This document shows positions 4,446 through 55,609 of a stretch of DNA of 64,000 bases, piece after piece (the first letter of the stretch is position 1; each line of letters starts with the position of its first letter). The notes beneath the pieces are model-generated. The model was not told the origin of the DNA and did not search any database. It saw only the letters and a program-made list of their open reading frames with translations. Position numbers and translations under genes: made by a program. The stretch is from Antitrichia curtipendula (Eukaryota; Streptophyta; Bryopsida; Hypnales; Leucodontaceae). The stretch is taken from positions 28,244,574 through 28,308,573 of the forward strand of contig OX579633.1 of the NCBI GenBank assembly GCA_951230915.1. Direction: 5' to 3'.

Positions 4446-5136
4446 CGTCCTCGATCGATCGAATGTACACGGAGCTGGAGATTTCTTGTGTGATCGCGAT
4501 TCTATCCGCTATCTACCTCGTGGTGGCCAGAAGACCGAGCTTGATGAAGAGAAAATCTGGAAGCCTCGAACTGATGAGTTTTCGTTGAATTTCCCGAAAC
4601 AGATGAAAAAGAACTATGGATCGCCACATGCGAAGAAACTTGCACGTGTGGTTCTGACGGGGGGGGGGAGAAATCGCGTCGCCCACAAACGAGGTACGTC
4701 TACGCTAGTGAGGCTGCACTTTTTAAATCATGTGTCGGAGGATTCCTAGCTGTATTCGATATCTGCGATTTCTGCTAGCAGAGATTGAGACGTAAGCCAG
4801 AAGTAATCAAGACAGCAGCACCTGATGGAACTCCTGTACCGGATCCTGTACGAGCGGGCGAACGCGGCTGCGAGACTCAGCTCTCTGGGCAGGAAAGCAA
4901 TCGCTAAACTGATCAAGGACTTTGAAGTGTATGATATTTGGGAAGCCAGAGCTTACAATTTCGTAAGCTGGGATGCACTGGGGAGATACCAATCAACAAA
5001 AACATGCACACCGTAGACTACGTATAACACAATGCTATCAAAGCTCTGCTCTCCAGCAAGCGCAAAGAAGCGGAGACCGACTAATGCATGGATGTCACTA
5101 TACGAGAAGCAGCGGTGGCAGGAATTTGTGGACAGA
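4446..5136. other. 5' flank of LecRK copy 1, nothing recognised
   Basis: Holds the presumed promoter and 5' UTR of the lectin kinase. Similarity to the second copy stops within a few bases of the start codon, so the two promoters are unrelated. Contains a run of nine G near 4660. No convincing gene. Confidence 0.4.
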
Positions 5137-27239: not shown

Positions 27240-27649
27240 GAAGGACATAACATTCAGTAGCAGAGGGAAGGGCTGCCTTCCCCCTCACAGAATGGTGTGG
27301 AATATTTCACACCATTTCATCCGCCGGATGATATGGTGTGGAATATTCCACACCATCAGTAGCTATGGGGACACGCGTCGAAATTTGTCAGAGGGTAAGT
27401 CAGTTGGCTGCAACTGTACAACAATCATTAAAAATTATAACAAAACCAATGTCCCGACACCCATTAAATCAAACACACAATAATCAGCATTCTACACCTA
27501 TAAATTGCATGTTTTGAAAACTTAAAACATCATTGGTTTTGTATGAATGCAAGCCAAAAGCATGATTCATTATTTTTCTAACTTTTGGCTTGCATTCATG
27601 TAAAACAAATACTATATTGAGTTTCCGATGGTAAAGAAAGCTATATATA

Positions 27650-28220
27650 TACACTTGGAGTGGTATGAGGTAGAACAGCCCATGTGGGATAAACAAGTTA
27701 GAATTTGTTGTTTGTGAAGCACTCATAGTTAAGTCAAAAACAAATAATTTTGTTAAAATTGAAATTTTAGACCTTATTTAGGCATAGTAGAATGATTCTT
27801 CTCAAAAAACTTTGAACTAAAAGAAGTTGGTAAGTGAAGATAAGTTTCACCTCCAAAAATCCGTTTGGAATTTTGAATATCCAATCAAAAGTTATGGACA
27901 AACTTGAGAGAGGGGCTGGAATGGACAATTTCTTTAACATTTTTCCAACCCCTCTCTCAAATTTGTCCATAACTTTTGATTGGATATTCAAAATGCCAAA
28001 CGGATTTTTGGAGGTGAAACTTATCTTCACTTAACAACTTCTTTTAGTTTAAAGTTTTTTGAGAAGAATCATTCTACTATGCCTAAATGAGGTCTGAAAT
28101 TTCACTTTTAACAAAATTATTTGTTTTTGACTTAACTATGAGTGCTTCACAAACAAACAAATTCTAACTTGTTTATCCCACATGATTTGTTCTACCTCCT
28201 ACTAACCCATGTGTATATAA
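27650..28220. mobile_element. Foldback element, copy 2
   Basis: Two arms of about 275 bases meet near 27935. The arms are so alike that both strands encode the same short peptide (KISFTSKNPFGILNIQSK). Landmarks: CCTCCAAAAATCCGTTTGG, CATAGTTAAGTC, CATGTGGGATAA. Confidence 0.85.
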
Positions 28221-28386
28221 AGAGTGTCTTCTCACTAAGAATTTCAAAATGAGTTATTGATGGCAAATGGTAAGATTACAATAGTGTATTACTCATTAGA
28301 TTTTTAGTGTTTTTGGCAAACTAGATTTGTATGTTTGGTCCTAAAATTAACAAAAGAAAGTGGAGAATATCATAATTTACTGTCAC

Positions 28387-28390
28387 TATC
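28387..28390. repeat. Target-site duplication TATC, left copy
   Basis: TATC here and at 46010-46013. The unoccupied related site at 12753-12756 reads TGTC once, in an otherwise gap-free 34-base alignment. Confidence 0.85.
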
Positions 28391-28418
28391 AACACCGAAT
28401 CAGACATTCTTGCACTTG
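28391..28418 (+). repeat. Left terminal inverted repeat and subterminal CAAGTGCAA motifs
   Basis: AACACCGAATCAGACATTCT continues to CTTGCACTTG. Directly inside, CCAAGTGCAATG makes a small inverted pair with the TIR end, then CGTACG follows. Such repeated motifs are candidate transposase binding sites. Confidence 0.8.
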
Positions 28419-28912
28419 ACCAAGTGCAATGACCGTACGCAACACTATTTATTGAAAATTGATTTTCAAAAAATTGGGTAGCTCCCATTTTTTCAGGAAC
28501 ACCTTTTTTATGTTACATCATGCAATATTTCAATTTAGCATAGGAATTTTTTACAAAGGTGCATTTAAGTGTTTTTTTTTGTTCAACGAATTACAAACAC
28601 ATCTTTATGACATCTCAATCACTTTTTTATCTTTCATGTACCAATCTCTGAACAATGTATCCTACAATTACATAATTATTCAACCATTTTCATAGCAACA
28701 TCACATGTACACCGTTTATCATTATAAATAATGAAAGATTTATTTAGAAAACCAAATTTCACATTGAAGGATTGACAACTACCTTCACATTTCCAAAACA
28801 CAGGTTCACACCAAACAAAAAATGTTCACTCCAATATCCTACTTTGGTTTTATAAACTAACACACACTACTTGCATTCTCACATACCCTACACTACCATT
28901 GCAGGTAATGCA

Positions 28913-31900
28913 CTACGCTTGTTCTAGTACTGCTTCATCCGGTGTCTCCAATACTTGTGCAGATGATTGTGTCAATTCTTTTCCTTCCCTTCCATCAGCT
29001 GCCTCTGCTTCTTCAACAACACTTGGTCCACCAACTTCATTCACTAAAACTGAAGTTGTGTATTGCAGCGTCCTATCCACCATAGCACTCGCAACGGGCG
29101 TTGACACTCCTTCTGATAAAGTTGGCGATAAGGTAGGGCCTTCTAGGATAGAAACTTGGCGGTGGAACACATACTGTCTTTCTTCACCAGTCCGAATATA
29201 TCGTACGTGCTCTCTGTCATAAAAATATCCGTCTTCACTGGATACCAAATTCATGGAGTCCATCATGTTAAATGTAGATAACGCTGACATGGGTTCCATT
29301 GATGCTGGTGTAACTTCAATTTCTCTCATGACAACTGCAACACCTTCCACTTCTACATTCTCCACATCATCAGTATTTCTTGTTGGAACATAATTATGAT
29401 CTTCTTCCATTTCAATGGGAGTCCGCTCCATCCCCACGCACTTCATCCATGGCATTTGTGTCTACAGAACCTAGACTTTGGCCACCACTAGGTAAATCGT
29501 CTGAGTGCGTTCTTTCAGACTCTGTATCAACTGATGAGGCTCCCGAATCAATTGCAGTCTGCTTGCCCTTCCGTTTGTCCCGTATAGACACTTGAAATCT
29601 CGCTCGTTCCTCTGATGACTCCTTCAATGGTTGCAGGATCCTTCTTGAATCACCACGTGGTACTCTCACATTCGCTTCGGGATGACTTTGATTAGGTGAT
29701 TCGTTTGTGGTATTCAACACTTGCGAAATTCTACGTTCGGCTGCTGTACTCACTGTATTCACCATTGACATTTTATCCCCGTACACCAACTGCAATGTGT
29801 TATACACAAATTGCGTTCGAGCGGTTGCTCCTTCTATAATTATAATTTCATTGCCCACGAATCCACTCTCCAGAATCCCCGGCACTGCCATGGTGATGCC
29901 CAATATCACCAGTCCCTAATTTTGTGGCAGGTACATCTGCACCATCTTCTTCAACAATGTTGGGGTCCTCTCCAACTTATCCTCCGCTCGAGGCATGATT
30001 TTTGCACTCCAAGAATCTTGAAATACCACATCCAAATCGTCTGCACTACTTGGAAGGTTCTCCATGGACCCACTCTCTTCGGGATATTGCATGATGATGA
30101 CAACGTCGCCTACAAGTTGAACTCCACGCTTTTGTTCTTCACCATGACGGAGATCATGCACATATGAAGACACAGTTTGTCGCTTAAATATTCAAGAACC
30201 CTCTAATACGTGACAACCCTATGGCACTGCCATCTTGGATTGCATTTCTTCATCAAAATACACGCCTGCCGGAAAAATGAACACAGCATTCCACCGTAAA
30301 ATTAAAGACATCCAACTCTGAAGTTGTTGCATAACCTTGCTGTAGTCTTCATCTGACCATTCCACTTCCTCCCCTCCCGAACCTCCCCATCTACAATCGA
30401 AAATCCATAAACACGGTTTTCCAAGTTCAATATACTCATTCTTGAAGAACCCTTCCCGACACCTGACGTGCAGTAATGCTTCAACATTTCCGTGTTGGAC
30501 TCCAGAGAGGGAAACTTGCCAATTCCATCGAGCATTTGATACGTCCTCCACATCCCGACCATAGCCCGCATATCCTTTGCGACCCGCTCGGATATCCACA
30601 AAGTGCTGCCGAACAAATGTTGGGATAAGTTTCTCAAAAGTGTTCAACATTTGCACCGTTTTCACTGCAGGCGAGCACCATAAAGTCTTTGCATCATTAT
30701 CCAATGTCTTCCCCATTAGAATGAACTGTCTCCCACGAGAATCTCCGTATTTGCTTGCATTTATGGCGAAGAAATCTTGTACAGATGATGGATTTACTTC
30801 TCCTGCTTGCACCATCAAGAAACGGACTTGATTTCTAACCGCATCCTTCCATTGTAATCGATCCACCACATATGCTACTGTGCCTTTCGATGGGTTTGGA
30901 GAAGCAACACTATTGAAATAGTAATGTTGCGATTCTCGCTTCCCTCCTATCACATCTTTGACAGCCATTTGCTTGACCACACGTAAATAATTCTCTGTTG
31001 AAATCCTGCTCAAAGGCCTGAACCAAGTCTTCTCCATCCTCTTCCTCTTTGAGCTTCCATCCACAGTGACATCAAGATTTTGCTCCCTTGCCATCTTCTT
31101 CCACCTCACCTCCGCCTTCTTGCTAAAAAATAATTTCCCTTCTTCATAGTCTTTGCTTCGGTAAATCTTGACTTCAATGTAACGCACTCACCGCCATTGT
31201 CAATGCCTTGGCTCTATGTACATCATCAGATCGAGTTGTTACACTTGGACTTCCACATGCTTTTCAAATGTCACGCAGCTTGATTAGATTCTTGTAATGC
31301 GTTGTGAAGAACTTGCGATCGAACTCTCTTGCATTTATTCTGACAGATGCTTCAATGTAGAACTGTGGGTTGTTGTACACCACAAACTTCGCTCTTCGTC
31401 TTTCAAATTGCGCATAGTACTCCATATCAGACAAGTTACCTCCTCTCCTTTCGCATTGTGCTCGTTTATATGCACCAATAATGTGTTGTCCGTCAACTGG
31501 CTCCCACACAATATTGTCTTCCATCCACCGCTTTCTAACCGCAGCATTTGATATAGATGGATCAGATTGACAATGCTTCAAAAAAGCGGCTTCAAATTCT
31601 CGTGCCGCATCCTCTTGACTGAAAGGAACCTCCACCATCTCCGTTTCGCCCTGCAAATCCAGATTTCTGTAGCAATAAGCTACGGGACGAAGTGTTATTG
31701 CACTAACTTCATGAGCTTCCGAACCCCTTAAGCACTCATACATTTCATTCACTTGCCATTCCATTAGCACTTTGTGATTTGTCCCCGCATTCTTCACGCT
31801 ACGAATGTTATTGATGTCCGCATTAAAGAACTCATTGTGGCCCCATATATACCCCGCTTTGTATTCACTCTCTGTTGGAAATACCACAGGGGCTTTAGGA

Positions 31901-33184
31901 ACACTTTTTAACAATGCCCGTGTACGTATCTGCTCCGGCTCCCCCTCTGAAGAATCATCATCGGAAACTGCTTCTTGCCCATCATTTCCTTGTGGAGGAC
32001 GTTCTTGTCTAGCAGCTATTTGACGACGTATTTGAGCTAATGTTCGTTTAGAAATCCTTCTCTTCTCTATTGGCCTTGTTTCAAAAGTGCTATGGTGTTC
32101 TTGAGCTTGTGAGACCTCTTCTTGTTCCGGATGACGTTGCACTCGAGTTCTTCCATGTCCTCTACCAACAATATGTCTTGTTGCAACGTCAGATCCTCGA
32201 GCCTCCATATTGGCCACTACAACACGTGACCTGTATATTTGTTTACCTGAGGCCACTCTTGGACGTATCAATCCTGATGCAACCTCTGTGACTGTTACAG
32301 GAGCTCCAACTTCACCTTCGTTTTCAAGCTCTTGGAACACTACTGCTGCATCTGGTATGGGGGGGTGCAGATGTAGTCTCCACAAGTTCCAACGATTCCC
32401 CTCCAACTTCCACCTCCACTGACGATGGCATAGTTTGGGCGTTCCCTTGTACTACTACCTCATCATGCCTCCCAACTTCAGTATCTCCCGTGGGCTCAGC
32501 AACAACATTAGATGTTGCAGACTGCAGACGCTGACGTTGAGTTCTTTGCCTTCGAGGAACTTCTTCCTCCTCTGCAAGGCTTGCTATTCCCTCCTCAATA
32601 TCAGCTCGCTTCCAGTTTCGTTTGTTCGAAGAAATCCAACTGTCATTTACCGGAACAGCTGCATCTCGATAAACTTCATTTGTGTCTTCCGGATCTCTAG
32701 ATATAAGATGCTCATTGACAACGTCAGGATTCTCTCTCGATACTTCTTCATGACTCCGAATCTCTCTATATCGAGTGCGTGCGGCGTGCAGCTGCTGAAG
32801 GGTCATCTCCTTGAACTTATGAACTGATGCTTCTCTGTGTACCCGTAGTTCTTCAGGCACATTCTTCCAATACTTTGCCAAGGTCTTCAAGCCATGGATT
32901 GGTAACATTAGTGAAAGGGGCTTTGGTGGAATTGGAGCCATCATGAGCGACTTCTTCAATTTATACTTCTCCAATGCCGTTTCAGTATTACTCACTGATA
33001 CAGTGAGCCCTCCATCTGCAATGCCTGTAAGGCCCTCAATAACTCCAAAAAAAGTCCCCAATGCAGCCCAGTAACGCCCTTCCTCGATTGGAAAATCTAT
33101 GACCCACAAAAAAATCTCCTCTGTGCCCTCCGCTACAATCCACCATCCATGCTCCAACCACTTTGAATGAACCTTCGGAGCCAT
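28913..33184 (-). pseudogene. Large element-encoded protein: ParB/DGQHR-like plus possible permuted methyltransferase-like segment
   Basis: Starts at ATG 33184 (MAPKVHSKWLEHGWW), preceded by an acceptor-like TTATTTGTAG. The frame runs to about 32350, where a run of seven G on the plus strand shifts it by one base; dropping one base joins ETTSAPP to IPDAAVVFQELE. A middle segment has NIVWEPVDGQHIIGAYKRA followed by FVVYNNPQFYIEASVRINA, resembling the DGQHR/ParB-type nucleotide-binding fold. After TGA 31264 and a one-base shift near 31190 comes KPCLWIFDCRWGG (about 30400), then ERTPTLLKKMVQMYL and LVILGITMAVPG...EIIIIEGA (29835-29990). Their order resembles motif IV, then X, then I of beta-class amino-methyltransferases, but the DPPY-type core is degenerate. 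Further stops lie at 30219, about 30192 and 29916, and a shift near 29420. The C-terminus is acidic and low in complexity. The domain assignments are inference. Confidence 0.45.
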
Positions 33185-36100
33185 GTTGACCTACAAATAA
33201 TTGAACATCAACATTTTCGTATGAGACGATGTCTTTCAACGCTCTCAAAGTTATATGCAGAAGTTTAAGACTGTATCTTCAATTATACAAAGCACAGAGA
33301 AAACACGCTACCGTTGTGGTGAGGTAAAAAACCGATCCAAATGAAGTGAAGGCCTCTAAGTAAACTAAATGTTCATGAAAGACAGACAATAATGAATATT
33401 CCAACATAAAAAATTTATACACCAAAACAATTTCTAGAAGTACATGTAGCTATATGTGAAACATCTAATGTTGTATATATGTATACAAAACAGAATACCA
33501 GTTCAGTTTCATCAAATGCACTATACTTTCAATACATAACACTATTAATATATGAAAATGTAATATATCTCTTCTCAATAAAACATAACATAAATTTTCT
33601 CACTATTATCTTAATATAATATTTTTTGTCCACCATACAAATTAAAAAAAATCTCCAAAAGTAACAAGATAAAGTACATGTTAACTTACGAGTAACCACC
33701 TAGCAACGTTTGAACTACTTAGCTCCTATTACATCACTACTATTAAAACTTTAAAATGTTCTTTTTGAAGTAATATACGGATACTGAAAGTCTGAAACAA
33801 CACCTTGCTACAGTATAATATAAGTACATGAACACTGTAATGGACAATTGCATTGAATGTCCACATCGTTTATGGATCAAAGCTATACCAAGTGCACTTG
33901 ATGGACATGACATTCAAGTGCATTTGACGGACATTAGAACTTCGCGATCAAAATTAAATAGGAAAATCACAATCAATCATTTATGAAATGAGTTATTTTA
34001 TTATAAACATGTATTACAAAGTTGATTTCTAAATATAGAATTTTACACAAACTCTAACTTCCTTTGTTTTTTTTTAAATTCCAATAGCAATTCAAGTGAA
34101 GTTGCCACCAACCTATTATCCTACGAACACTTACGAATAAAAAACTAAGATCTAAAACAAAATTTATGTAGTACAACCTAAATTAATTAAAAATTGTATT
34201 TACTTTTGTTGTCTTTAAACTTAAAACTCTTTCAATCTCTTCCGTTCATTCTTGGCAAATTTTTTCGGATACTAAACCCAAAAATAATAATTCAATGACA
34301 TGTTGAACAACATTATACAAGAGTGAGGACAAAAACCTGATGCAAATGCTATTGTTGATTTAGTCTCCAAAAACTAACATTGTATGCACGTTTGTGAAAC
34401 GCCCTCTCTTTGTTGTTTCGCCATGGTCCGTGTGTTGTTCTGCAAAAAGTACCACATCCAAAACTAATGTCAACATCTTCAACAATGCCTCACTCTATTA
34501 CCCTTACGTACATTGTGAAATTTGTTTTACTTTCCATTTACATGCTCAAGAGATACATGAAATTGTCGAATTCTCTATTTTTTTAAAAGTACAGAATACC
34601 ATTATAGAGAAATTGGCCACTCTAATTTTCAATTACCTAAAGAAAAATTATAAAATGAACAATAACATCAATTAGAATTTGAAGAACTCTTTGCAACCAC
34701 AATTTGAAGGCATAGTTCTAAATAAAATTAAAGTCAAGGTAACAAGTTGTACGTACTATTCTTCAAGCAATCACGCACTGCAATGTTCATTTGATCTAAA
34801 TCAATGAACAAGCATATGTCCTACTAAATATATGATTACAGTGGCACTCGTCATTCACGTTCATGCATGTGCACTATTATATGTTCTGAAGAAACAATAA
34901 TTGCAGTTAACAAAACCTCGTGAAAAAATTATACCTATTTGTATACTCTTGAAATGATTTTAAGCTCAAGAAAATCCTTTGATAGGGGGACAAGTAGCAT
35001 TCCTAGTTTCTACCAAAAAATTCAAAATTGTTCAATAAATACTTTCAGTGCAAGCTGTAACAAATCTAGAATAACAAAGTACTAGGTGTTCAGATCCGCA
35101 TTCTCTTCTATATACTCAAAACTCTATAGTACGAAGTTGAAAAAAAGTCTATGCATTTTATGTTTCCTATACAGAGGAACCACTTTGCAGACAATTATTA
35201 AAATGACATATACTATAGAGGCAAGGGAATTCTTTTATGACGTTGAAATTTGTAATGGACCTCATCAAGACATTTGGAATTCAGAACTTAAGAGATTTTA
35301 ACATCTACTACGTTCCATCAGAGTTCCGTTTAGATGACATTATACCTAAGTGAAGACATTGTAAATTCAAGTACTCTATTACTTGCTTATTCTTCAAAAT
35401 TTAGTTTGAAGGGTTCAAAATAATTTTGAGTTAAATTCTAGCTAATAGTCTACACACGACTAAAAAGTGCAATTTGCAATGTATGACACGTGCTCCAAAA
35501 TCTTGATATTCTACTAGATACCTTCTGTTCCGTTTTGATTATTATTGCAGAATGAATTCAAATCCACTACAAGTTTTAGACTCATGATTCATCCTGCTCT
35601 ACAGTAAAAGGCTCCAACATAGTTCTAGCATTAAAAACCATTTACCAGTAAGATGTACACGATTGGTTCATGAAGTTTTTTCATAGCCTCCAATGATGTT
35701 CAAACTATGTACATTTCAAGGGTGGACTAGTTTGGAGCCCTATGCCAGATCCACTTCAAAATTTCATAACTAATTCCACAAAGCTCCAAAAAGTACTAAT
35801 CGACTTGGGTTACATGCCAAATCTACTGTTCTTTAAGGAGAATTTACTCAAAAATATTTCAAAAAGTTTCTTCTCCCCCAATTTCAATTCCAGTCCTTTA
35901 TTGGGCAATTTATGAACCTCCTACCTTATATATGACTTATTTTTCGACATGAGAATTTTTCATTGGTGGCAGCATTTGTCACATCTTGATGTATATTACT
36001 TCATTGTGCAAGATAATCTTTCAGCCTCAAAATTATTTTTTGACATGGGGCACATGGCAAATTTCAGTACGGTGGTGCAATTCCAGTAGGGTTGCGGAGT

Positions 36101-36590
36101 TTCAGTTGCTTGGCTGAGAGTTTGAGACATCCAATTTGTACGCAACCTTGGGTACACAGTTTGGAAACTAGTTTCCAACCGTAGCCCAGAGATTTGGGCA
36201 CTACAATGTGACTTTTTTGGCGTCACCGAAGCCTGCTATTTTAACGAATGTTATCATTTAACCTAATCGCTGAACTGAGGTCAAAAAATTCCAGGTATGG
36301 GATGTCCAGGACATTTTGTCCATCAGTTGAAAAAAATATCTTGCTCAATCATGAATTCCATTTGACTCGATGTTTTGCATGTGTATTACACTCCCTGCTC
36401 CGTTTTATAGTGGTAAAGGTCATGTCCATCTTTAATCACGATTGTCGAGTTCACGATGAGATTAATGATTTAAATCACACTCAATCTTTACCAAATGAAA
36501 CCTGCTGAACTGAAAATGAAGTTTCACATGAGCACTCTACATTTAACCAATGCAAACAAATGCAAAATACTTAATGTGAACTAGTTGAAT
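33185..36590. other. Noncoding left part of the transposon centre
   Basis: AT-rich, upstream of the left gene. The first 150 bases presumably hold its promoter and 5' UTR. No gene seen; 35900-35935 contains a CCTCCTACCTTATA end like that of family M3. Confidence 0.4.
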
Positions 36591-37620
36591 TCAGAACTGC
36601 AAGGGGAAGAAGCCGCGGTACCCACCACCCAAAACGAAATCCCTCAAATTCCAGTCAGTATGAAGGCCAGCACTGTTCACAAACTTGCAAACAGACCCCT
36701 ACTAAACCCTAAACCAAGTGATGGCACAACACTCCCGTGAAGCTCCCCATAGGACAAAGTCAACACCAATTCTCAATACCTAAGCAGCCAACACCCATGA
36801 GGACAAAGTCAGCATCGTTCTCAAAATTCAAGTTGTGCCATCGAAATTGAAATTGCGCATCCTACTCGACATTGTGAGGACCCAAAGTCAGCCTTCTGGA
36901 CGACAAGAGGACGGCAAAATATCTAAAGCGACAACAACAACATCCACGAGGAGGTAAGTATACAAAAATCGACAGAACATTCTTTCCTAAAATTTCCTGC
37001 AATTGTGTTTGTGTAGTGTCTCATCCAACATTTCCAAAATTTTAAAATGAAAATGTGTTTTAGAATGTGCTCACTAGAGTCGCAGTGAACAATAGAAAAT
37101 AAAATCTGCGATGCTTGTGTACCCTGTCCTCGGATCGGCAGCCACGTCTATCGTGGTTCTAAGAACTACCTAGCACTAGCGAAAAACTTATGAAGCAATT
37201 TTGAATATCTGAAACTACCTAGATTGTTCAACTTCGAAGAAGCTCACAGTTTCTCTACCCTGTCCGTGCATTGCTAGCAGCGTCCATCCTGGTTCTAAGA
37301 ACTAGGTAGCACCAGCAGCAGTAGCACCCTCACTAAGCAATTCTGAAATTCTCAAAAAATCTTGACTGAGCAGCTAGGAAGTACCTGAAATCTTGAATTA
37401 CCTTGGAGGTTAACACATTAAACTGTGCAGGACACAACAAAACACAGCAGGTACCTTGTAGGTCAATTATCGAGCAGCGAAGAAGGTTTGATTCCTGTCG
37501 ACGCTTTCGAAGAAGGGCGACCTGAAGAACCGGGATTCTTCATCGTCTGGAAGACTGGAACACACCACCGAAATCTACAGTGTAAGCATTTGCAGCCTTC
37601 TCAAAACTGAACATTAATAA
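36591..37620 (+). other. Higher-GC noncoding or exon-like stretch
   Basis: Less AT-rich than its surroundings. A 60-base phrase occurs twice (37121-37180 and 37256-37316; both contain GGTTCTAAGAACTA). From an acceptor-like AACTGTGCAG at about 37430 a frame reads LVGQLSSSEEGLIPVDAF to about 37580, followed by GTAAGC. This may be an exon of a third, spliced gene of the element or of captured host DNA; I cannot identify it. Confidence 0.25.
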
Positions 37621-38751
37621 CATTCCTCACCGTAAATCCTCACCGCAAACCCTCTCACAACGAGCGCTCCAAAATGCTAACCCTAAATAACTAATTTCAA
37701 TTTAATTCACCAACTAAGTGATTTCTTGACTAAAAAATACCAATTGTATTTCACATTATGAATATTTCTTGGAATGACAGAGTAGGCAGTTTGTAACACT
37801 ATTGTACCCTAGTGTACCCAGATTCCAAATAGAATTGCCGTTATGTCTTTCGTTTTACTGCTTGGTGTACATGAATGTCACAACTGTGGCTCCCACAATC
37901 ACGCCAATCAAGCTAACGAAATTGACCATTCTTAAAAAGAATTCGTTGAACGTCCAGGTCCCTGGATCTTAATGTGCATGGCTCGACGATTTGAAGCGGA
38001 TCCTCTGGACGATTCCAACTCCAGGGCATGCTCACAATTAAGCATCATATTGAACACCACATGAGACAAATCTTAACTTCAAGGTATATACAACAAGCAT
38101 GGAGAGATTCATAAAAAATGACCGACGTAAATTTCATAATTGTCAAAACTGAGATGCGCAACCACTTCTTTCGTAAGTAGATGATCGAAAAACCAGGACA
38201 CGTCGAGATTTTCGTTGTATGGGTACAATCACTGAGAACTTTGCCAATAATGCTACTTGAATTAATACACCCTTCAGTTGCATTGAGCTAGCTAGCACCA
38301 CCAGAGGCAGATGATTCCAGCTTTGGTCTTAATTAGTGACGACAAAAAAGAAAAGGATCATGTGAGGTTGTGTACCATATTCTTTGAATTACTGTACAAT
38401 ATACTTTTATTATAGCTATTTCCTAGCAATTGATCGAGATGGTTTACTAGGGTTTCACTGTACTAAAACATAGTGTCTTTGCTCGTGATCGATACCTACA
38501 GATTCAATCGACAGCAGTACTTAGAAGGAGACCGGGTTGAAACAACAGAAACTCCTCACTCAGTCTTAAGTTACTTACAACTATGTTCCGATTTGAGTCC
38601 CCACATGTGTGGTGACGGGTGAGTACGTACGTCCCTTTCTGTTTTGGTTGCTTAAATTTGAATGTGTGCTTGACTGTCGAAATTTGAATGACTGTCGAAG
38701 TTCCTAGCTACTGTTGCAGACAACTAACACGTACATGTGTGTATCGCAGAG
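37621..38751. other. Noncoding centre, nothing recognised
   Basis: No gene or repeat boundary seen. Confidence 0.3.
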
Positions 38752-38911
38752 GCCGCAAAGGAGAGTCGACGCAGCTCCCACGGCTGCACAGCGTCTGCAG
38801 CAATCGGAGATTCTGCAGCCTCGACAGGAAACGCCGGTGTTCTCCAGCGGGAGCAGCTTGGCCGACAACGACCTGGAGAGACCGCACCGACGAAAGCGTC
38901 CGCAAAACAGG
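38752..38911 (+). other. GC-rich exon-like island with splice signals
   Basis: 160 bases much richer in GC than both sides, preceded by TGTGTATCGCAG and followed by GTAAATG after AAAACAG. All three frames are open for most of it, which is common for GC-rich segments and gives no family match. It could be an internal exon of captured host sequence. Confidence 0.3.
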
Positions 38912-38982
38912 TAAATGTTCGTTAGTTTGCGTTTTTTTTAAATTTTTATGAAATCAAAAAACGTCATTAAAAATCATAAACT

Positions 38983-39065
38983 ATTGTTCAATGAACAGTA
39001 ATTCCAATCAAACCCTCCGCGCGAGCGGAGGGTCTGATGGGAATTACTGTTCATCAAAGAACAAT
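38983..39065. repeat. 83-bp hairpin with GC-rich tip
   Basis: Arms contain ATTGTTC, TGAACAGTAATTCC and ACCCTCCGC with their complements around GCGAGC near 39023. A few mismatches; looks like a small MITE. Confidence 0.75.
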
Positions 39066-39594
39066 CCTTGTAGTTGCAAGGGGAAGTGAGCGGGGTCGAG
39101 AACTGACCTACGCAAGGAGCACCGGCCGAGCGGAAATGAAATTTTGAGCTGCAACATTGCCCTCTATAGCGCCTTCGTTGCGCCTCCTCAGTGATGTCGC
39201 AAACACTAATTGGCAATTCAAATTTTGCTGCAACGATAGAGTAGCAATTCCGCTCCGCAATACTGGAAGAGTGCTGCGTAGGGTTTGGTCGCCCGCCCGC
39301 AGCTCTCCCATGTGAGAGAGTAGTCGTTAATCGCGACTGCAGGCTTTGAAGTGTAGCACTGCATCCGACGGCTTGGATGCTTACAGATGCTTACACTGTG
39401 ACAGCTTTGATGACTCATCTGGATGTGACATCCTTTTGATGCACAAGGGTAGATTGGGAAATTATAAATTCGTATTTGCAATCATGAGTCCCAAATTTGC
39501 ATATTCCAGCCAATGAATACCATAAAACGTGGCACAAAATCCACAGTATTAGCTTTAATTTTTTACAATAAGGCAGTATGCTCTTAAAGTGACC

Positions 39595-39930
39595 ATTTAA
39601 GGGCTGATCCGCCTTTTTCACAGGCTTTAGTGGACAAAAATATTCTTAGATCATTTTTCAGAGAAAGAAAAATGGATGTGTTACCTAACAGAAGTGGTTT
39701 TGTATTTTTCCAAGCATTTTTAAAATTACTTACGAATTTTCAAAGATTCAGGACATAGGCACCTATTTGTGACCATAGGTCTTCCAAAATCTGTCCACTT
39801 GCAACTTGTAAAGAGATGTGCAGAAATCAAAGACAATGATTGGCTCTTGCAATAGAAAAATATTTTTTCCTCAATACATTCAATTGCTAAACTGGTCCAT
39901 TTAAGGATCACCCCATCTCCATTCTTTACC
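39595..39930 (+). repeat. Decayed M3 MITE inside the transposon
   Basis: Follows M3 internal sequence (CGCCTTTTTCACAGG, AATGATTGGCTCTTGCAAT), but the AGGTAGGAGG ends are lost. Adjacent 39950-40470 resembles 58990-59340 (CCCCCTACTTGTTGCCA against CCCCCTATTTTGTGCCA) and contains a 171-codon frame that I regard as chance. Confidence 0.5.
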
Positions 39931-40479
39931 TAAAAATAGGGTCGATTTCAAGAAGATGGGCGCTTTTAGAGCAAACTACCTTAGTTGGATCCATGGGAGA
40001 AATAACAATGTCAATCATCCTTGCTTTGGCAAGGGAGAAGGGAGAATGGACTATCTCATTGCCCCAAGTAAGGATAATTTAGAGAAATTGCCCCCTACTT
40101 GTTGCCATGATCTTTTTAATTTCGTTTCCTCTTCTCGCGAATATGGGGCCTTTGATTGCCAATATCAATTTAGAATTTCAAAGCTTTATGATGTACTGCA
40201 TTCCAAAAAAAATTTGTTTGCTTGTGTGGGTCATAGAGGGGGTCCATTCATTATAGCCTTGATTCCCCCGAGCCCTGATAGTTTACAGAAATTGCCCTCT
40301 ACTTTGTATCATGTTTTTGGGTATTTCTTCACCTCTACTTGCTACTCTCGGGCCTTTAATTGTGAAAATGAAATCAAATATTCCAAATTTTATGATGTGT
40401 CACAAATTAAAAATTACAAAGTTTGCCACAACGAGGCAACGAGGGGGCAATTCACCCTAGTCGCAAGATAGAGTGTGGT

Positions 40480-42488
40480 AGTGTCATTAGTAGAGAGTGT
40501 AGACCGAAATTGCTACAACTAATAGTTGAGTTACTAGAAAATGTCTTCCCTTTTTGATGGCATTGTTGATTTGTCTAGTTGGTTAACAATTTATGGATGA
40601 CATGTAGAGTCTTTGGAAACCATACAAGATTAGTTAAACCTACACAAAACCAACCTGTGATCAGTACAACTCGAGAAATTGGAATGATTATCAGAGTGTA
40701 TTATTAAATCGTAACTTACAACCAATTTATGATTTTCAATTTTTTTCGATTTAGAATAAAATTTCAGTGTAAGCCTTTTGGTCATTTTCTTTGAGCATCA
40801 GAGCCATGGATAAAGATGAAGCATATATTGGAACTATTAGACATTTTTAAGAGTTAAATTGTAGTTTCAAGATCTTTGACAAAAATTGTAGTTAATAGCA
40901 TTTGAACATGGGAATCTTTCAACATTTTTAAACACACTGGGGGGTGGAATAGGGTACAACTGCATGGGAAGGCATTCTTATGATTATAATGGCCACATGG
41001 AATGAAAAGAAAGAGTACCATTAATAGAGGGTGCAGTAGCGTGGGATAAAGTGGTAGTACTATGTAAACAATGCATCAGAAGAAGTAGTGACAGTTTCCC
41101 TCAATTTCAAAAAGATTATCGTTTGTCCTTCATAGTACTCTAGTACCACGGCCTTTTTGGCCATAAAATGGCAGGTGTTTCTTGCAACTACCCTATGCTC
41201 AAATTTTCAGTTTTGGGAGTTTCTTGAAACCGTTAGAGAAGAGTAAGAAATGTGGTTGATATAGGGGAAATGGCATTGATATTTCATATGCGATAGTCAT
41301 TGAATGTCTGTTTAGAAATATTTCAGGTATGTGATTGTTATGTTTTATTATGTAAATACTACAAAGTTTTAGTGCTTTGGAAGACCTCAATGTTAGCATT
41401 CAAGTGGAAAGAAAGGATTGAGAGATGCCATATGATTTTCACTTCAATAATGTTATATCTATGAAATATGTGTAGCAAAATTTCACTGCATGAAGGAAGT
41501 GAATTTTGGTGTAATTAATGTGTACTATAAAACATATGACAAAAGGATTTGTATTGTACCAGATATGAAAGGTTATTTTTGAAATTTTTTTTTTTGCATA
41601 TTTTTTTTCTGCTAGTGATATGTACAATCCAAAGAGTCTTCGGAAAGACATTTTGCATTTAAAAATTAGCAATTCACATGAGTAGACAACAGTGGGAGAA
41701 CTTTTGCATAATTAAATGTAGAAGAATATTGAGCGTTTGCACTGTTTCCAATTGTGTCTAGCGTAGTACAAAATGTTATTCTTTTAATTTTGTCAGTTTG
41801 TGACTCTATTTGTGTACAAATGATTATTTAAGGAAGTAAAACAGTTGCCAATTTGAAGTACTTCATTTTAGTTATCACTGTACTGTTGAAGAGGGAATAA
41901 AAAATTCATAGAGGATGTTATTTTTATAGTCATTATGTATAGTGTACTAGCGTTTTGAAGGTCATAGAGGTGGACAAAATGATTAGTTAAATTAAGTAGT
42001 CTTCATATAGCGGAAGTTGCAGATGCAATATGCAATGGTTGTTGAAATTCTATTGTCTACTATATGTGTTTAGCGTAGTTCAAGCAAAATAAGTGAAGAA
42101 GAGTAGAACAAAATTGCTTATGTTTGTTGTAATGTTATGTACCAAGGATGGCAGTAGTTGTTGTTTTTTGTTTCCTTCTCTATTATTTTTTTTTTTAACA
42201 ATGGACCTTTTTTTTATTTTTTTGGCACACAGTAGTAAGAGAAGGAAACATCAAAGGATTGTTGCGCATACAATGGAATGAAAAGACCGGGGAACTCAAA
42301 GGAGTTTGTACAATTTTGTATGGTTTTCTGTTAACAATTTGTAGTTATTTGAAGAAAAGAGGAGTAGGTTTTTAATGTTGGTTTTTGCAATTGATGTGCG
42401 GCGTGCAGGTCTCTAGTTTCCCAAGAAAGTCTATTCACAAAGTTATGTATCAAGAACGGTACTCATGAAGAAGCAATAATTGAAGAAA
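40480..42488. other. Noncoding right part of the transposon centre
   Basis: Upstream of the right gene; the last few hundred bases must hold its promoter. AT-rich, no gene seen. Confidence 0.4.
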
Positions 42489-45400
42489 ATGGCAGCAGAA
42501 GCGTTTGGAAGTCTAGTGGTATTTAATGCAACTGGAGCAACAGTGGTTTCCACAGAGCGAAGAACCGTAGGGCAAAGATTGGCACGTGTGGTGCGAGTCA
42601 GACTATTCCAAGAAGAAGACAATGCAGTTGTTGCTAGGCAACCGCAATCTACCAATGGCATGGTTAAACTTATTGGAAATGATGGTTGTGTGGTGGCATT
42701 TGGCATGGTGGATTCTAGCTTGACATGCGGTGATGAACTCCACTCTGTGAAATTACGCCCTTTTGAAATTGCGATTCGTATTGCACATGTTGTGCGATAA
42801 ACAGAATGGATTGGTGAATTGGTAGGGGAGTATATGGGAGATTGTGTAGAGAAAGTCATACGATGGCGTCATGCTTTTGTTCGTTGGCCAAGTCCCGCAG
42901 AAGTGAGAACAACAAGCAGGACTTCAGGAGAGGGAAATAATTTTTCTTTTCCCCCGGTCAATGCACCTCAATTTGATTTTAATGATGCAGAGGACATCCC
43001 GAGCACTTCACAGATGACATCGCCGAGTACTGGTGGAAGAAACACACCAGAGAGAAGTTTTGCTCATACGCAATGTTCCATAGGTAGCACTGCAAATTTC
43101 AACAGAGGAGGAGGATTAGCGCCACATACTCAGAGGAGGAGTTATTCAATGGAAAATCGAAGGGCTCGAGTGAGAAGCCCTAGAGAAAGGGGGGAGTCAG
43201 CAAGTCATAAAGTTACCCTTGATAGTGTTATGTGCGCAAAGGAGAAAGGAGCATGTAAACGGAATTGCTTGCGTGATGTAGATGCCAAGTACATATTGGA
43301 TCAGCGGTATATGGCATGGGGGCAAAAGTACGAAGCGCGTGCAACCTGGATAATGCAAATGCTGAATGCCTTCTAGACTCGCACCGATGGCTCCATAAAA
43401 GACAAGTACGTGACAAAATTAGACGGTGCAGTTGTTTGTAATGCATGTTACGCCGCTGCGTTGGATTATTCTCAGAGGTGTTTGAAACAATTGAAGACAG
43501 CACATGTTGTATACGGCAGAGTGGTAGCCATTCATGGAAATACTTGTAAAGGAAGGGAAAGTGCTAAAATGTCAACGGCAAGGGAAAGCCTTGACGTTTT
43601 TGTGAATGAAGCTGGATGTCAGCAACCGCATCGATCAGTACGCAGGAAAAAGGACAATGCGGTGTTACCACTGATTCTGTTGCCAATGAATACGAGCAAA
43701 TTGGATGTTTTCCGATATGTGAATGAAGAAGTGAAGAAACTAATGGACGGATCGAAATTGTCTATGAGCTCATTCAATCGACTTTGGCGGAAGGAGTTTC
43801 CGCATGTGCAGATTCCACCTTTCTCCAGATTCTCCAAGTGCTATCACTGTTGGGAGTACAAGTGTGGAATGGAATCCACGACAAATGCACTAGCAAAGGT
43901 GAAGATAAAAGAGTTGTATATGTTGCACATCCAATATCAGATGGAGGAGAGGCGAGATTATTGGATATTCAAGAGATCAGCAATGATCACTCCAGATTTT
44001 TTTATGTGCTTGATTGTGGATGGTATGGATTAAAATACAACCATAATACCGAAGATGAGGCAAACCGTGAAGAACATCGAATTTCGATTCGTGAAGACTC
44101 ATTTGTGTGGTGTACTTGTGCACGGGAACGGTTTGTATGCAGATGTGTGGATAGATGCTCATCACAAGTACGATAGCAATCAAGTCATAACATCAGTGAT
44201 GAATGTAATATGTGACGTCAAGCGAAGGAAGGGATGTTTGCCACCGACGTTGAGGATTCAAGCGGATAACACCACCAGAGAAAACAAGAACATTTACATG
44301 TTTGTCATGTGTGCTGCATTGGTTGGGTTGGGTTTCTTCAAGGAAGTGCATTCTTGTTTTTTGATAGTGGGCCACACTCATGAGGACATCGATCAGAGGT
44401 TCAGTGTCATCTCCAATGTATTGAAGAGGAAAAATATAGATACGTTGGACGAAATGTTGCAACTAGTGGAGAAAGGGACATCGTATAAGGAGTCTTTTGT
44501 GAGTGCTCGCAAGCTTGAGCACATCCGCGATTGGAAGGCATTTATCACACCTCATTTGTTAAGAGGGGGAGAGCAGTTGACGGGCATAACATTTCCGCAC
44601 CATATGAGGTTTTACGTGGAGAATGGTTTGGTCCGCGTGCAACACAAACTTTTTTGCTCAGATGAATGGGGCCCAGCAAGAGGACATTCATGTTTGAGTT
44701 CATTACCAAGCGTAGTAGAGAAACCGGACCTTGCACAGGTCTTTGCTGCTGATCAGAGAGAATTAAAAGCATTGGACGAGTTTGTTGCATACAAGGAGAA
44801 GATGGTGTTGAGAGGGAACAACCGCATCAGGGACATGGAAGTAGTAGATGAAACAAATCAATTCAAGGAATATTTGAAGGATTTTCCAAGATGAAGTAGA
44901 GAAGGCTTCCGTGATTTACCGTTTTAGCCGAGCGATGTTGTGAACCGAAATGAGATTGGTGGTACTACATCGAATGTGCAAGAAGCAGATACAGTTTCAA
45001 ATGGAACAGACAATGCAAATGGGACAGAAGTAGAGAGTGCAGCCGCGGACGTCATTCTGGCAACCATGCCAAATCCTGAGAGGAGGGGTTACTTTGGACC
45101 CCGCAGAGACAGACCCGAACAACAAGCATCACGGAGAGTGACTGGAGGGAGGAGGAGAGGCAGAAGAAATGCAGTTTTATCAGAAGTAACACAAGATGCA
45201 AACGAAGATGCATTTCCACCATTCAATCCAGATAACGATATTGTTGTGGGTCAATATGTAGCTCTTACAGTTGAGCTAACAGAAGTAAGAGAAGGGGTAC
45301 CTTTTTTCATAGGGAAGGTGCTCGAATATGGTCAAAGGACATGGGCATCAAAGATGAAGATTTTGTGGTATTGGCCTACAATGAGAGCTGGAACAGAAGG

Positions 45401-45695
45401 TGAAGCAGGTGGTAACAGAGTGAGGTATCAGAACTGCATTGAATCTATATGGAAACCGTCTGGTGAGAGGTTCGCATGGATTGAGAAGAAAGACGCTATA
45501 TATTCTTGGGTGGATGTTCCACGTCGAGATAGAGGTGGTCACGTTTTACATTCAAACATTACGTTGTATGGTGTGCAAACAGAAGAGACCATTATCATCC
45601 CGTCCGAGGCGAAACCGCACCTTATAGAATATCTAGCGATGCAGATGGAGGACCTGGACGACGAACGCTTGCAGAATGATTTGAATATGTATTAG
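42489..45695 (+). pseudogene. DUF7869-like putative transposase of the 17.6-kb element, five in-frame stops
   Basis: One frame is conserved without any shift over 1,069 codons from ATG 42489, broken only by stops at 42798 (TAA), 43374 (TAG), 44031 (TAA), 44892 (TGA) and 44925 (TAG). Order of segments: an N-terminal part of unknown role; a Ser/Thr- and Arg-rich linker; a cysteine segment (CAKEKGACKRNC) and VVCNACYAAALDY, typical of the region before DUF7869; FSKCYHCWEYKC, a possible zinc site; then LIVDGMD, LRIQADNTTRENKN and VGHTHEDIDQRFS, which place acidic residues as in RNase H-fold nucleases; and a C-terminal domain with GQYVALTVEL, PFFIGKVLEYG and ILWYWP. Each stop could be CAA, CAG or CGA before a C-to-T change. 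As the only nuclease-like gene it is the likely transposase (inference). Confidence 0.75.
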
Positions 45696-45981
45696 TGGGT
45701 TATTATCCTATGTAGTATACTATCGGCCTTGTAGTTGTAGGCTTTAGATTTAGATGTATTTCAGTGTGCAGTTTAGAGTAGCATGCTTTTAAAGTAGTAT
45801 GGAGTGAAAAGTGTACTACCTATTCATGAAGTAATTATAAAATAAACAACATTTGAAAAATTTGCACTGAGCTTTTTTTCTTACAAAGAGAAAATGGTGA
45901 TTTTCATTAGCCTCTCCCCCCCCAACATTTGAAGATGACTATATTGACTATCGTACGAGGCAAGTGCAATGTCGCACCCCT

Positions 45982-46009
45982 CAAGTGCAAGAATGTCTAA
46001 TTCGGTGTT
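45982..46009 (-). repeat. Right terminal inverted repeat
   Basis: Complement of the left end with one mismatch (GTCTAATTCGGTGTT against the left AACACCGAATCAGAC). Just inside are two direct CAAGTGCAA motifs (45961 and 45982) and CGTACG (45952). Confidence 0.85.
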
Positions 46010-46125
46010 TATCCCGGTACCAAAGCTTGCATTAATGCTAAGAGGATGAATTCTGTGGATGAGGACTCCAGAGAGGAAAAGGCGCCTCTCTGAAAGCTAA
46101 TGAATGTTATGGAAGAGACACGCCA
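46010..46125 (+). repeat. Repeat block R5, copy 2, right of the insertion; starts with TATC duplication
   Basis: Continues the alignment to 12757-12870 (AAGCTTGCATTAAT, TCTGTGGATGAGGACT, GCCTCTCTGAAAGC). Confidence 0.75.
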
Positions 46126-46419
46126 AAACCAAAGAAATTTTGGCATTACACTTGCATTAGAAAAAAAAAAAGATCAGTAAGGAACTGTGAGTTCCCAGCC
46201 GCAGGGAACTCTGGCGACAAATTTTATTAAAAACAAACAGAAAAACAGCAAACTGTTGCGCCTATTTAATGTAGGACAGATCCAATAAACAGTTGAAAAA
46301 AATTTGAAATAACTGTAATAAAATTATTATTGAAATGAATTCACACTTACAGAATTTTGCAGCCTAATGTGGCACAAGGGCGACCACATCAGATTGCTTG
46401 TTTAAAAAATAAATAAACT

Positions 46420-46545
46420 TATTAATTATTATTAATTGTTATTAAATATATTTTTTAATTATTATTAATTGTTATTAAATATATTTTTTAATTATTATTA
46501 ATTGTTATTAAATATATTTTTTAATTATTATTAATTGTTTGAAAT
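46420..46545. repeat. 33-bp tandem repeat, about 3.7 copies
   Basis: The motif AATTGTT begins at 46434, 46467, 46500 and 46533, exactly 33 bases apart, with TATTAAATATATTTTTT in each full unit. Pure AT. Confidence 0.9.
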
Positions 46546-46639
46546 AGATTTTTTAATAAAATTAATTAATTAAAAATTTAATGCACTGGCTATTGTTCAC
46601 CACTAATGATGAACAGTGCATTAGTGGCCAGTTTCTCCC

Positions 46640-51901: not shown

Positions 51902-54193
51902 TTAACGACCTGACAAGACTGATGACGAGGTTGTGGCGAAGGACGTTTGCATGTTGGCTCGCTCTCCATCGGAAACACTGGATTGCGACGATAGTTGCTC
52001 TCCCTCTCGCACATTCTCAACACTTTGCGTTGTAGACAATGATCTGATCATGGCCATGTGCGAGAATCCCGGCCGAGAGTACCGCGCCTGCGGTTTACAT
52101 CTTGGCAAAGGAGGCAGAGACGATGTTGTAAACTCATTGGATTGCAGTAATTGGGACACGAGTCGCATTGATGGTCTATCCTCGGGATTAGGGTTACAAC
52201 ACAGAAGTCCCAAATGCAACAGATTTGCCACCATCTTCTTGTCTTCTATTGGTGGATCTCGAGTGTGAATTGTTGAAGAGTCGAATTCATGCACGATTGC
52301 TGCATCTTGCTCTTCGACATCACCTAAATGTGCAAACCAAGAAGGGAAAGTCCCAAGTCTTGAATCGGACACAAGGAGAAGATCACCCGCTTCGTGTGCG
52401 CGCCATGTCCTGTTCACTAACGTTCCGTCTCCTCGCTCGATGTTGTCCGTATCAAGCGGCCGTGTCCCGCTCATTACTTCAAGCATTAGGACGCCGAAGC
52501 TGTACACGTCTGATTCCTTGGTGGCTTTTCCTGTGTGCGGCATCTCTGGGGCCATGTAGCCCAAAGTTCCTGCCATTAAGGTCGTCTTCTCAATTTTCCG
52601 GTGGTCGATTAGTCGAGCAAGTCCAAAATCTCCCAAGTAGGCATTCAAGTCTTCGTCCAGCAAGACGTTGCTGGACTTGATGTCGCGATGCAACACACAT
52701 TGCTTGCATTCCTCATGTAAGTACGACAGCGCTGCGGCTACTCCGCTGAGAATGGAGTGGCGCAGTTGCAAAGGAAGTGCCTCCGCTGCATTCAATCTCA
52801 CTGGTCCCATTTGTTTTTGCTTAGCGAACTGGAAGAGCCACTCGTCCAAGCTGCCGTTGCACATGAAGTCATACACAAGCAACAGTTGCTCTTCTTCGTG
52901 ACACCATCCTCGCAGCTGCACCAAATTCCGGTGCCGAATCTGGCTGAGGCTCGCGGCCTCTGCTTGGAACCCCTCCTCCCCGTGCTTGCTCTCATTTCGC
53001 ATTCGTTTGACCGCCACCAGGGCACCCGAGGGGAGAATCCCTTTGTACACAGCTCCAAATCCACCGCTTCCAAGCAACTCACTTCTACTGAAGTTCTGAG
53101 TCGCCTTGCTGAGTTCCTTGTATGTGAACATGCGCGGCACAAGGTTCTGATCCACGAGATTAAACATGGTACCTTGCTTGGTGTAAGATGCTCTCCTCCG
53201 CCGCTTTGCAATTACTATCCCTGCAAGCAACAAGACTGCACCAACTCCAGCACAGACTCCAGTTATGATTTCGACTTTTCTTCGTGTACCAGAGGAATGT
53301 TGCATTTCCGGGTTCGTCGTCATTGGAGGTTGCAAAGTTACAATCTCTGGCATACCAGAGCTCGAGAACTGCCATGATTGAATGGCGTGAACCTCACTGA
53401 ACGATCCGGTGCTGGAGCTGAACCCCACATACATGAAATCGTCTAGAATGCCATCTAAACGAAGATTGAGAGCTTCGATCAAAGGCTTCGCAGGTTTGGG
53501 GATGCTGTTGTACAGAGAGCCATTAGCAAAATAGACCTCCAGCTTCTGAGATGGACTATCATAATCGATCCAAGCAGTGAAGGATCCACCGTTGGCAAGA
53601 TACGTGCAGTTGGGAATAGTGCCTCCACAGAGATTATGCGACCACGTCGAGTTCATGCCGTTAAGGTCGACGCCGATGTGGTTGTTGCTGGAGTCGTTGA
53701 ACCAATAGTTTAGGAAAGTGTCGAACTCGACTGCGAAGACGCGATTCGAATCCAGGCCACTGTCGGCCTCTTGTAGGAGGCACAACGACGAGCCCGGGCT
53801 TTGACCCAGCAAGGAGGTGTTTCTGGCGAAGGTGAAGGCCAGTCCGTCTGCATGAAGAAAGCCCGTTTTGTCGTACCAGTAGTCGAGACCCGTAATGGAG
53901 AATGTGAAGGCGGTCTGGAAGGAAGCCACTGCACCGGAAGTTGTGTCTTTCATCTTCACTTTGTCTTTGTACAGCAGCCTGCCGCAAGTTTTGGTGGAGA
54001 GGGAGTACCCCGTCGGATTCATCAGGAAGGACAAGTTGTTGGCGTTGTATTGGACATCGTCCACCATCTCGAAATTGTCGGGCGAGTTGAAGGAACGGTA
54101 GCTGAAGTTGGTGTTTTGAGCGGAACTGCCGGGGATTACGAACCCTGCTAGAACTAGCAGGCCCATTATCTTGAGATGCCCATGTAACTCCAT
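51902..54193 (-). CDS. L-type lectin receptor-like kinase, intact
   Basis: Single-exon gene of 763 residues from ATG 54193 to TGA... the stop at 51902. Order: signal peptide (1-25, ends GSSA), legume-lectin domain (27-277) with FAVEFDTF (153-160) and NNHIGVDLN (170-178) for metal binding, transmembrane helix (309-329) followed by KRRRR, and kinase domain (about 370-682) with GSGGFGAV (375-382), Lys396, HRD (502-504), DFG (522-524) and APE (548-550). It is an RD-type kinase with all catalytic residues present. The tail is Ser-rich. L-type LecRKs sit in the plasma membrane and link extracellular ligands to immune, wound and developmental signalling (family knowledge); the ligand of this one is unknown. 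Length and lack of introns fit the family. It is the paralogue of 2139-4445, same strand, 50 kb away. Several Asn-X-Ser/Thr sites occur in the lectin domain. Confidence 0.93.
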   Translation of the reverse strand: MELHGHLKIMGLLVLAGFVIPGSSAQNTNFSYRSFNSPDNFEMVDDVQYNANNLSFLMNPTGYSLSTKTCGRLLYKDKVKMKDTTSGAVASFQTAFTFSITGLDYWYDKTGFLHADGLAFTFARNTSLLGQSPGSSLCLLQEADSGLDSNRVFAVEFDTFLNYWFNDSSNNHIGVDLNGMNSTWSHNLCGGTIPNCTYLANGGSFTAWIDYDSPSQKLEVYFANGSLYNSIPKPAKPLIEALNLRLDGILDDFMYVGFSSSTGSFSEVHAIQSWQFSSSGMPEIVTLQPPMTTNPEMQHSSGTRRKVEIITGVCAGVGAVLLLAGIVIAKRRRRASYTKQGTMFNLVDQNLVPRMFTYKELSKATQNFSRSELLGSGGFGAVYKGILPSGALVAVKRMRNESKHGEEGFQAEAASLSQIRHRNLVQLRGWCHEEEQLLLVYDFMCNGSLDEWLFQFAKQKQMGPVRLNAAEALPLQLRHSILSGVAAALSYLHEECKQCVLHRDIKSSNVLLDEDLNAYLGDFGLARLIDHRKIEKTTLMAGTLGYMAPEMPHTGKATKESDVYSFGVLMLEVMSGTRPLDTDNIERGDGTLVNRTWRAHEAGDLLLVSDSRLGTFPSWFAHLGDVEEQDAAIVHEFDSSTIHTRDPPIEDKKMVANLLHLGLLCCNPNPEDRPSMRLVSQLLQSNEFTTSSLPPLPRCKPQARYSRPGFSHMAMIRSLSTTQSVENVREGEQLSSQSSVSDGERANMQTSFATTSSSVLSGR

Positions 54194-55609
54194 CGTCGAT
54201 GTTTCAATTGACCGTCCGCGGGAAAAAAACTAACATAAAATAAATCTCGTCTTGCGCCTAGTATCTTCAACACTGCGAAACTTTGAACATTCTCAAACGT
54301 ACAGCAACGTGCTCACTACCCGCCTCTTGTGTTTCCTTCTAATCCATCAACTCTAAGAACGACCTCCTAGACAAGCTCTAATCCAAACCACTCACCGGCG
54401 CGCGCGCCACTCATAGGAGCCCTATCGATCATGTTCCAATTGCAATCATGCTTCGATCTCCTTGCCAACGAACCCTTTCTGATCGCTTAATTCCGGATCA
54501 GAAACATCTCGTACTAACTTTTCCCAATCTTGGAAAACAAAATAAGACTGGAATGTTGCAGTTAAGTATGGCTACATGCAAGTAATTCTCTATCGCTATA
54601 TGCTAACTTTTGTAAAGATATAAACCACCAAAGTTGGAGTTTAGACCGACTGGCCTGGACTCAATCTGCTGTAGGTTCTCACAGACAAATATATATCCCC
54701 AATGTCAGATCTTTCCTTGGTTTTAATTTGCAGATCGGGAGGGCACTGAACGCCAGCGAAGAATGTTAAAGTCAAGCCAGTTTCCAATGCAGCTGCAAGA
54801 AACTTTGGGAGCATGCAAGACATTCAAACGATTCCGACCGCGACCTTCGATTCTATATATTGTATGACAATCAGCTAGCAACCTCGAAGCTAATACTACA
54901 CGTGTAGTTACACAGTGCTATCTTACATTGTCTCGTTCTGACTTCTGAATGAGGTGTCCCGAATATGGGCAATCTAAAATTGCACTTGCATCAAATAGAA
55001 GTGTGAGACATTTCATTTTATGCACGGTGGAACGAAGGAAACGGTAGCATGCATCCCGAGACAGATAGCCAATATCTTACAATCTCTGTGAAAGTTCTGA
55101 TTCGATGTTGATTTCTGAGCCCGTAACAGAGTCGCCTGACCTTAGACGCGCATTTCAATCAGTGTTGTACATACAGACACTTAGTAGACACACAATTCAT
55201 GCGTCAACAGACAGATGACCTACACAGGTAGGTGCAACCTTTTCAACCTTTTAGTCCCCAGGGACAGCCATTCTAGGCTATGTTGTGCAAAATTCTTGGA
55301 TTGTGGATTTTTTTGTTCCCTACCAAGTTGAAATTTGGACTTATTGTAATATAACTTTTGTATGGTTGCAAAAAAGACCAACTATTTTTTGTAGTGCTTT
55401 GCCAATAACTAGATTTCAGAAGCTGATAACCATTAGTACTTTGTTGTGAAACAAATTCAAATTTTCAACCACTATTGAAAAAATCAACAACTAGAAATAC
55501 TTTTACAAGTGTTGTGGACTACTTGGCTACTTGCAAGTACTAAAACAATTCCTTTGTATAAAAAAGACAATTTGTCAAAAAAAAATAGATACAATAAAGT
55601 ATAAATTAA
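54194..55609. other. 5' flank of LecRK copy 2, nothing recognised
   Basis: Presumed promoter and 5' UTR of the lectin kinase on its first few hundred bases. No TATA box can be assigned with confidence. Less AT-rich than the repeats; contains GGCGCGCGCGCC-like text near 54397. No gene. Confidence 0.35.

Follow-up and report, generated by a model that had tools for sequence, protein, structure and literature searches.

A 64,000-nucleotide stretch of the genome of the moss Antitrichia curtipendula (contig OX579633.1, positions 28,244,574 to 28,308,573; hereafter the window) carries at positions 28391-46009 a 17.6-kb element that is probably a decayed giant two-gene cut-and-paste DNA transposon of the Sola superfamily, most like Sola1, with Sola being compared by description. 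Three features of Sola are present, namely 4-bp target duplications, 29-bp terminal inverted repeats and a predicted DDD transposase, encoded by the right-hand gene (gene R); the left-hand gene (gene L) on the opposite strand is predicted to encode a ParB-like domain joined to a methyltransferase fold. Within a single plant-like genome, the family to which the element belongs accounts for at least 258 near-identical termini. Its analysis puts a likely function, that of a DDD transposase, on DUF7869, which Pfam lists as unknown, and provides a clean two-gene family suited to testing the role of the ParB-methyltransferase accessories of giant transposons.

The element is bounded by terminal inverted repeats of 29 bp (28391-28419, plus strand, and its inverted copy at 45981-46009, minus strand) in which 28 of the 29 bases match and which give the ends AAC...GTT, and it is flanked directly by TATC on both sides (28387-28390 and 46010-46013). 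Both the inverted repeats with one mismatch and the TATC flanking repeat had been put forward in an earlier sequence-only reading of the window and were confirmed. That reading also named shared subterminal motifs, a claim that stood in part. The repeats TTGCACTTG (28410-28418) and CAAGTGCAA (28421-28429) at the left end and two further copies of CAAGTGCAA (45961-45969 and 45982-45990) at the right end, that is, at positions +20, +31, -49 and -28, are found at identical positions in all three copies examined whole, where about 0.14 occurrences per element are expected by chance; the copy from a distant group holds four extra ones internally. Because of these fixed positions in three copies, we propose the end repeats as a candidate binding site for the protein of gene R or gene L. 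The other motif, CGTACG, lies close to both ends of the window copy, close to one end of a second copy and close to neither in the distant copy, and since its presence varies in this way it is not a common end motif.

Left and right ends occur together elsewhere in the genome, which was searched as a 400-Mb assembly of 303 contigs. Using the first and last 210 bases of the element, 40 of 145 candidates were scored for the left end (40 matches) and 40 of 151 for the right end (41 matches). With the window copy included, 22 of the 40 left matches could be joined to a same-strand right match within 36 kb; another 17 were without a scored right partner and one belonged to a candidate pair on C4 with 52 kb between its ends. 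The 22 pairs span 10.5-35.5 kb between their ends, and 17 of them are bordered by an exact 4-bp duplication, compared to 22/256 (about 0.1) expected by chance. The duplicated sequences are varied (TATC, ATAT, TTAG, CTTT, ACAA, AATA, TAAC, AGCT, TGTA, TTTT, CCGT, AATA, CTTG, CTAC, AAAT, AATG and TATA). Inspected by eye, the remaining five pairs consist of one at C7:12328854 that is exact (CTCA) if a changed terminal base is included, three in which the match fails at a single base or is shifted by one position, and the pair spanning 10.5 kb, which lacks a duplication. A genome-wide count of the terminal 28-mer, allowing up to two mismatches, gave 258 occurrences (132 + 126), compared to 0 for a reversed control. 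Among 100 of these 258 ends, each of the 100 being an exact match, 27 convergent pairs of 14.4-35.6 kb were formed and 46 ends stood single; none of these 27 pairs was a short derivative resembling a miniature inverted-repeat transposable element (MITE).

Three other copies illustrate the range of states within the family. The 14.7-kb copy at G000:C10:21613612-21628292 (L005, L014) keeps both ends, but in its left part the sequence between about positions 277 and 4593 of the window element is missing, and it is a deletion derivative without most of gene L. A second copy, 18,471 bp long and on C1, can be aligned with the window copy at both ends and through much of its interior; its gene R is open at 1,071 amino acids and its gene L is spread over three frames. 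A copy of the far group, 18,874 bp long and also on C1, has the same 28-bp ends with TAAC on both sides; its gene L is open at 1,475 amino acids, and its gene R contains a single stop. Each gene is thus open in some copies, but no copy with both genes fully open was present among the matches listed for either gene or in the two whole copies, so that a fully autonomous member was not observed.

In the window, the two genes point outward, gene L on the minus strand (28913-33184) and gene R on the plus strand (42489-45695), with about 9.3 kb between them, as the sequence-only reading had described. This arrangement is a property of the family: for 78 of the 87 scored gene L copies a DUF7869 match lies on the other strand in outward orientation within 45 kb, at a median distance of 14.2 kb (near group, 33 of 39 copies; far group, 45 of 48), and a right-gene match within 45 kb in a different arrangement was seen once. 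When 150 right-gene matches were placed at random in 200 trials, with the sizes of three contigs approximated, a mean of 1.0 and a maximum of 4 such pairings were obtained. A reading of the locus as two separate nested elements, the ends of which face each other by chance and each of which owns one of the two genes, could draw on the poorly conserved centre and on copy lengths ranging from 10.5 to 35.5 kb. It is contradicted by the duplications common to left and right ends and by gene pairing far above the random mean in two diverged groups, which refute it for the family as a whole, and we give it practically no credence here. Both results that the sequence-only reading had named as refuting, ends that fail to co-occur and genes that belong to separate nested elements, were looked for and did not appear. 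The data support a single DNA transposon that makes 4-bp duplications and includes both genes. Between the two groups, the ratio of nonsynonymous to synonymous substitution (dN/dS) amounts to 0.22 for gene L and, in two parts of gene R, to 0.15 and 0.17, with dS between 0.83 and 1.16, indicating that both proteins have been under selection. Relatives from genome and metagenome records comprise 165 DUF7869 proteins and, for gene L, 6 + 6 proteins; P0121, a relative of gene L, and P0091, a DUF7869 protein, lie on contigs of equal length (457,206 bases), which suggests that the same pair is present in another genome.

Gene R forms one frame with five internal stops in the window copy. The presence of DUF7869 (PF25273), noted before, was confirmed at 44088-44660 with an expectation value (E) of 2.9e-50; the accompanying description of the gene as nuclease-like was not, the DUF7869 region being a predicted DDE transposase core. 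With E allowed up to 5, DUF7869 is the only Pfam family matched by the open gene R, and an integrase (rve-type) match is absent. Its structure model has the element order of an RNase H fold, DDE enzymes make up most of the fold matches listed, and three aspartates at positions 121, 204 and 246 are conserved in 27/27, 37/41 and 46/47 sequences, respectively. From these models and alignments, gene R is predicted to encode an RNase H-fold DDD transposase. The best 150 of 1,609 DUF7869 candidates in the genome were scored and include at least eight stop-free frames of 1,067-1,072 amino acids, whereas 0 of 14 control genomes contained a DUF7869 match. The name DUF7869 was not found in a literature search, which did not extend to Repbase. 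In the comparable part of gene R, C>T or G>A accounts for 23 of the 35 changes unique to the window copy, but also for 14 of the 31 unique to the open copy, and the methylation-decay signature in the window gene is thus weak. A second DUF7869 type was also observed in the same genome, with many stop-free frames of 643 amino acids and two of 958 (e.g. G000:C3:4101062-4101547 and C1:1530947-1531432), in which only model positions of about 35-192 are matched; it probably represents another transposon family, perhaps a recently active one.

The large size of the element and the fold of its DDE core, which is near that of retroviral integrases, might also point to a virus-like or self-synthesizing integrated element of the Polinton type. 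Polintons have 6-bp duplications (PMC10045372; this and the other papers are cited here for part of their text) compared to 4 bp in this family, and none of 12 open reading frames (ORFs) of the element has a polymerase or capsid match in Pfam. Moreover, of the pattern stretches located on IMG/VR contigs (31 and 49), none encodes a relative by tblastn, a phage match was not found for P0131, and the viral fold matches are weak (best E 0.0074). We therefore regard a viral origin as very improbable.

The second very large gene of the earlier reading proved to be gene L (28913-33184, minus strand), which is decayed in the window and open in other copies. In the genome, 87 of 224 gene L candidates were scored, falling into two groups that are 82-100% and 67-76% identical to the query piece, and stop-free frames of 1,457 (C2:29442615) and 1,475 amino acids (C1:12905946) are present among the matches listed. 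Structure predictions assign to the protein a ParB-like region (LRP ... VDGQHI, approximately 31264-31900) and a beta-class DNA amino-methyltransferase fold (approximately 29790-30530), both on the minus strand; the likeness exists at the fold level only, as no sequence-level support for ParB or methyltransferase was found. The catalytic motif of beta-class DNA amino-methyltransferases is (D/N/S)PP(Y/F/W). At the corresponding position, located by strand order, DCRR takes the place of the expected DPPY in all 14 covering sequences, 8 of which are from this genome, and gene L is therefore predicted to possess the methyltransferase fold without its usual catalytic motif. If the methyltransferase part is indeed inactive, such accessories may bind DNA and not modify it, contrary to what is suggested in the consulted part of PMC12477816. 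A literature search combining ParB, moss and transposable element, judged by title, returned no relevant paper.

For most of its length, the centre between the genes (33185-42488) cannot be aligned with that of the distant group; it contains two short tandem repeats. A Pfam comparison of its two longest ORFs at a threshold of 0.001 gave no match and so no sign of a third gene, although an unusual or spliced one may exist; RNA genes above Rfam gathering scores are absent from the window. Inside the centre, at 38984-39061, an inverted repeat of 37 nt with a loop of 4 bases is possibly a small nested insert. As to the state of the window copy, gene L, set against P0122, shifts frame at a run of C and also shows premature stops and a small deletion, and gene R has its five in-frame stops; with both genes broken, this copy would yield neither protein intact and would have to rely on those supplied by other copies. 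In an active copy, the gene R protein would pair the 29-bp ends, excise the element and join it to the target with a 4-bp stagger. The gene L accessory protein would probably bind the element's own DNA, perhaps at the CAAGTGCAA end repeats, and may help to assemble the ends or to counter silencing, not methylating DNA, with the 9-kb centre probably serving as a two-way regulatory spacer.

The surroundings of the element in the window hold several other features. Just to the left, at 27518-28224, long and nearly perfect inverted repeats with arms of 214 nt (96%), 69 nt and 43 nt constitute a foldback or MITE-like insert, and just to the right, at 46410-46572, lies an AT-rich 33-base tandem repeat. 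Legume-lectin (PF00139) receptor-kinase ORFs flank the element at 2877-4508 and 51902-54229, both on the minus strand, and their presence points to a land plant as the probable host.

Among known systems, KDZ, CACTA/EnSpm, Mutator-like elements (MULE), hAT, Harbinger, Tc1/mariner, piggyBac, Kolobok and Polinton are cut-and-paste elements as well, but differ in the length or sequence of their duplications. Giant members are known from KDZ and EnSpm (PMC12477816). Mutator produces duplications of 7-12 bp and Tc1/mariner duplicates TA (PMC10741241), compared to 4 bp of varied sequence here. Zisupton (KDZ), with its 8-bp duplications (PMC12730594), and Polinton/Maverick, with 6 bp, were rejected as candidates, as were Kolobok and piggyBac, the TTAA duplications of which (PMC9587614) are present in 0 of the 17 exact duplications. 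Duplication length alone is not decisive, since Ginger1 (4 bp), Ginger2 (4-5 bp) and some IS481EU elements (about 4 bp), which have DDE enzymes related to integrases, come close to the length found here (PMC10045372). Ginger differs in that Pfam shows no integrase for gene R, and IS481EU in its ends, which are TGT...ACA or TNT...AYA (PMC10045372) and not AAC...GTT. The sequence-only reading had found no fit to hAT, MULE, CACTA, Harbinger or mariner; Sola, which fits both the 4-bp duplications and the size, was missing from that list.

Sola elements possess a DDD transposase, 4-bp duplications and terminal inverted repeats of 11-1124 bp, and have been reported from the moss Physcomitrella (PMC10741241). 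The structural traits, with the transposase as a predicted one, are shared by the window element (PMC10741241, PMC4455052), and although most Sola members measure 2-9 kb compared to 17.6 kb here, some exceed 15 kb. In Repbase, superfamilies are assigned by transposase similarity. The family could instead form a superfamily of its own, defined by the pairing of a DUF7869 DDE transposase with a ParB/pseudo-methyltransferase protein and Sola-like only in size and duplication length; such a separate giant plant superfamily, in which the methyltransferase domain of the ParB-like partner would be a non-catalytic reader of DNA or DNA methylation that holds, marks or shields the ends, seems to us unlikely, yet deserves some weight. 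It is favoured by the absence of the DUF7869 name from the literature found, by gene R matching nothing else in Pfam and by DCRR in 14 of 14 sequences, whereas the ParB-methyltransferase protein of the brown alga Ectocarpus is predicted to make N4-methylcytosine (N4mC) or N6-methyladenine (N6mA) (PMC12477816). On the other hand, a name missing from papers says little about Repbase, Sola with 4-bp duplications has been reported from a moss (PMC10741241), and a Sola1 element of like size class, with two genes in this arrangement and an accessory of this type, has been published (PMC12477816). For these reasons assignment to Sola is preferred. The published element, Sola1-1_Ec32 of Ectocarpus, is 21.5 kb long and carries an opposite-strand ParB-methyltransferase gene of 1104 amino acids (PMC12477816). 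Likened by description, both elements are about 20 kb in size and combine a transposase gene with a large opposite-strand ParB-like/DNA-methyltransferase gene, which here is predicted at the fold level and which is an accessory that does not define Sola as a whole; here the catalytic motif is apparently lost (DCRR) and the protein is longer (1,457-1,475 compared to 1104 amino acids). The suggestion that the locus was the best candidate in the window for an undescribed system is thus not supported and an undescribed system is unlikely, as the size, the 4-bp duplication, the predicted DDD enzyme and the predicted opposite-strand ParB-methyltransferase gene together match a giant Sola1 element of the same architecture that is already in print.
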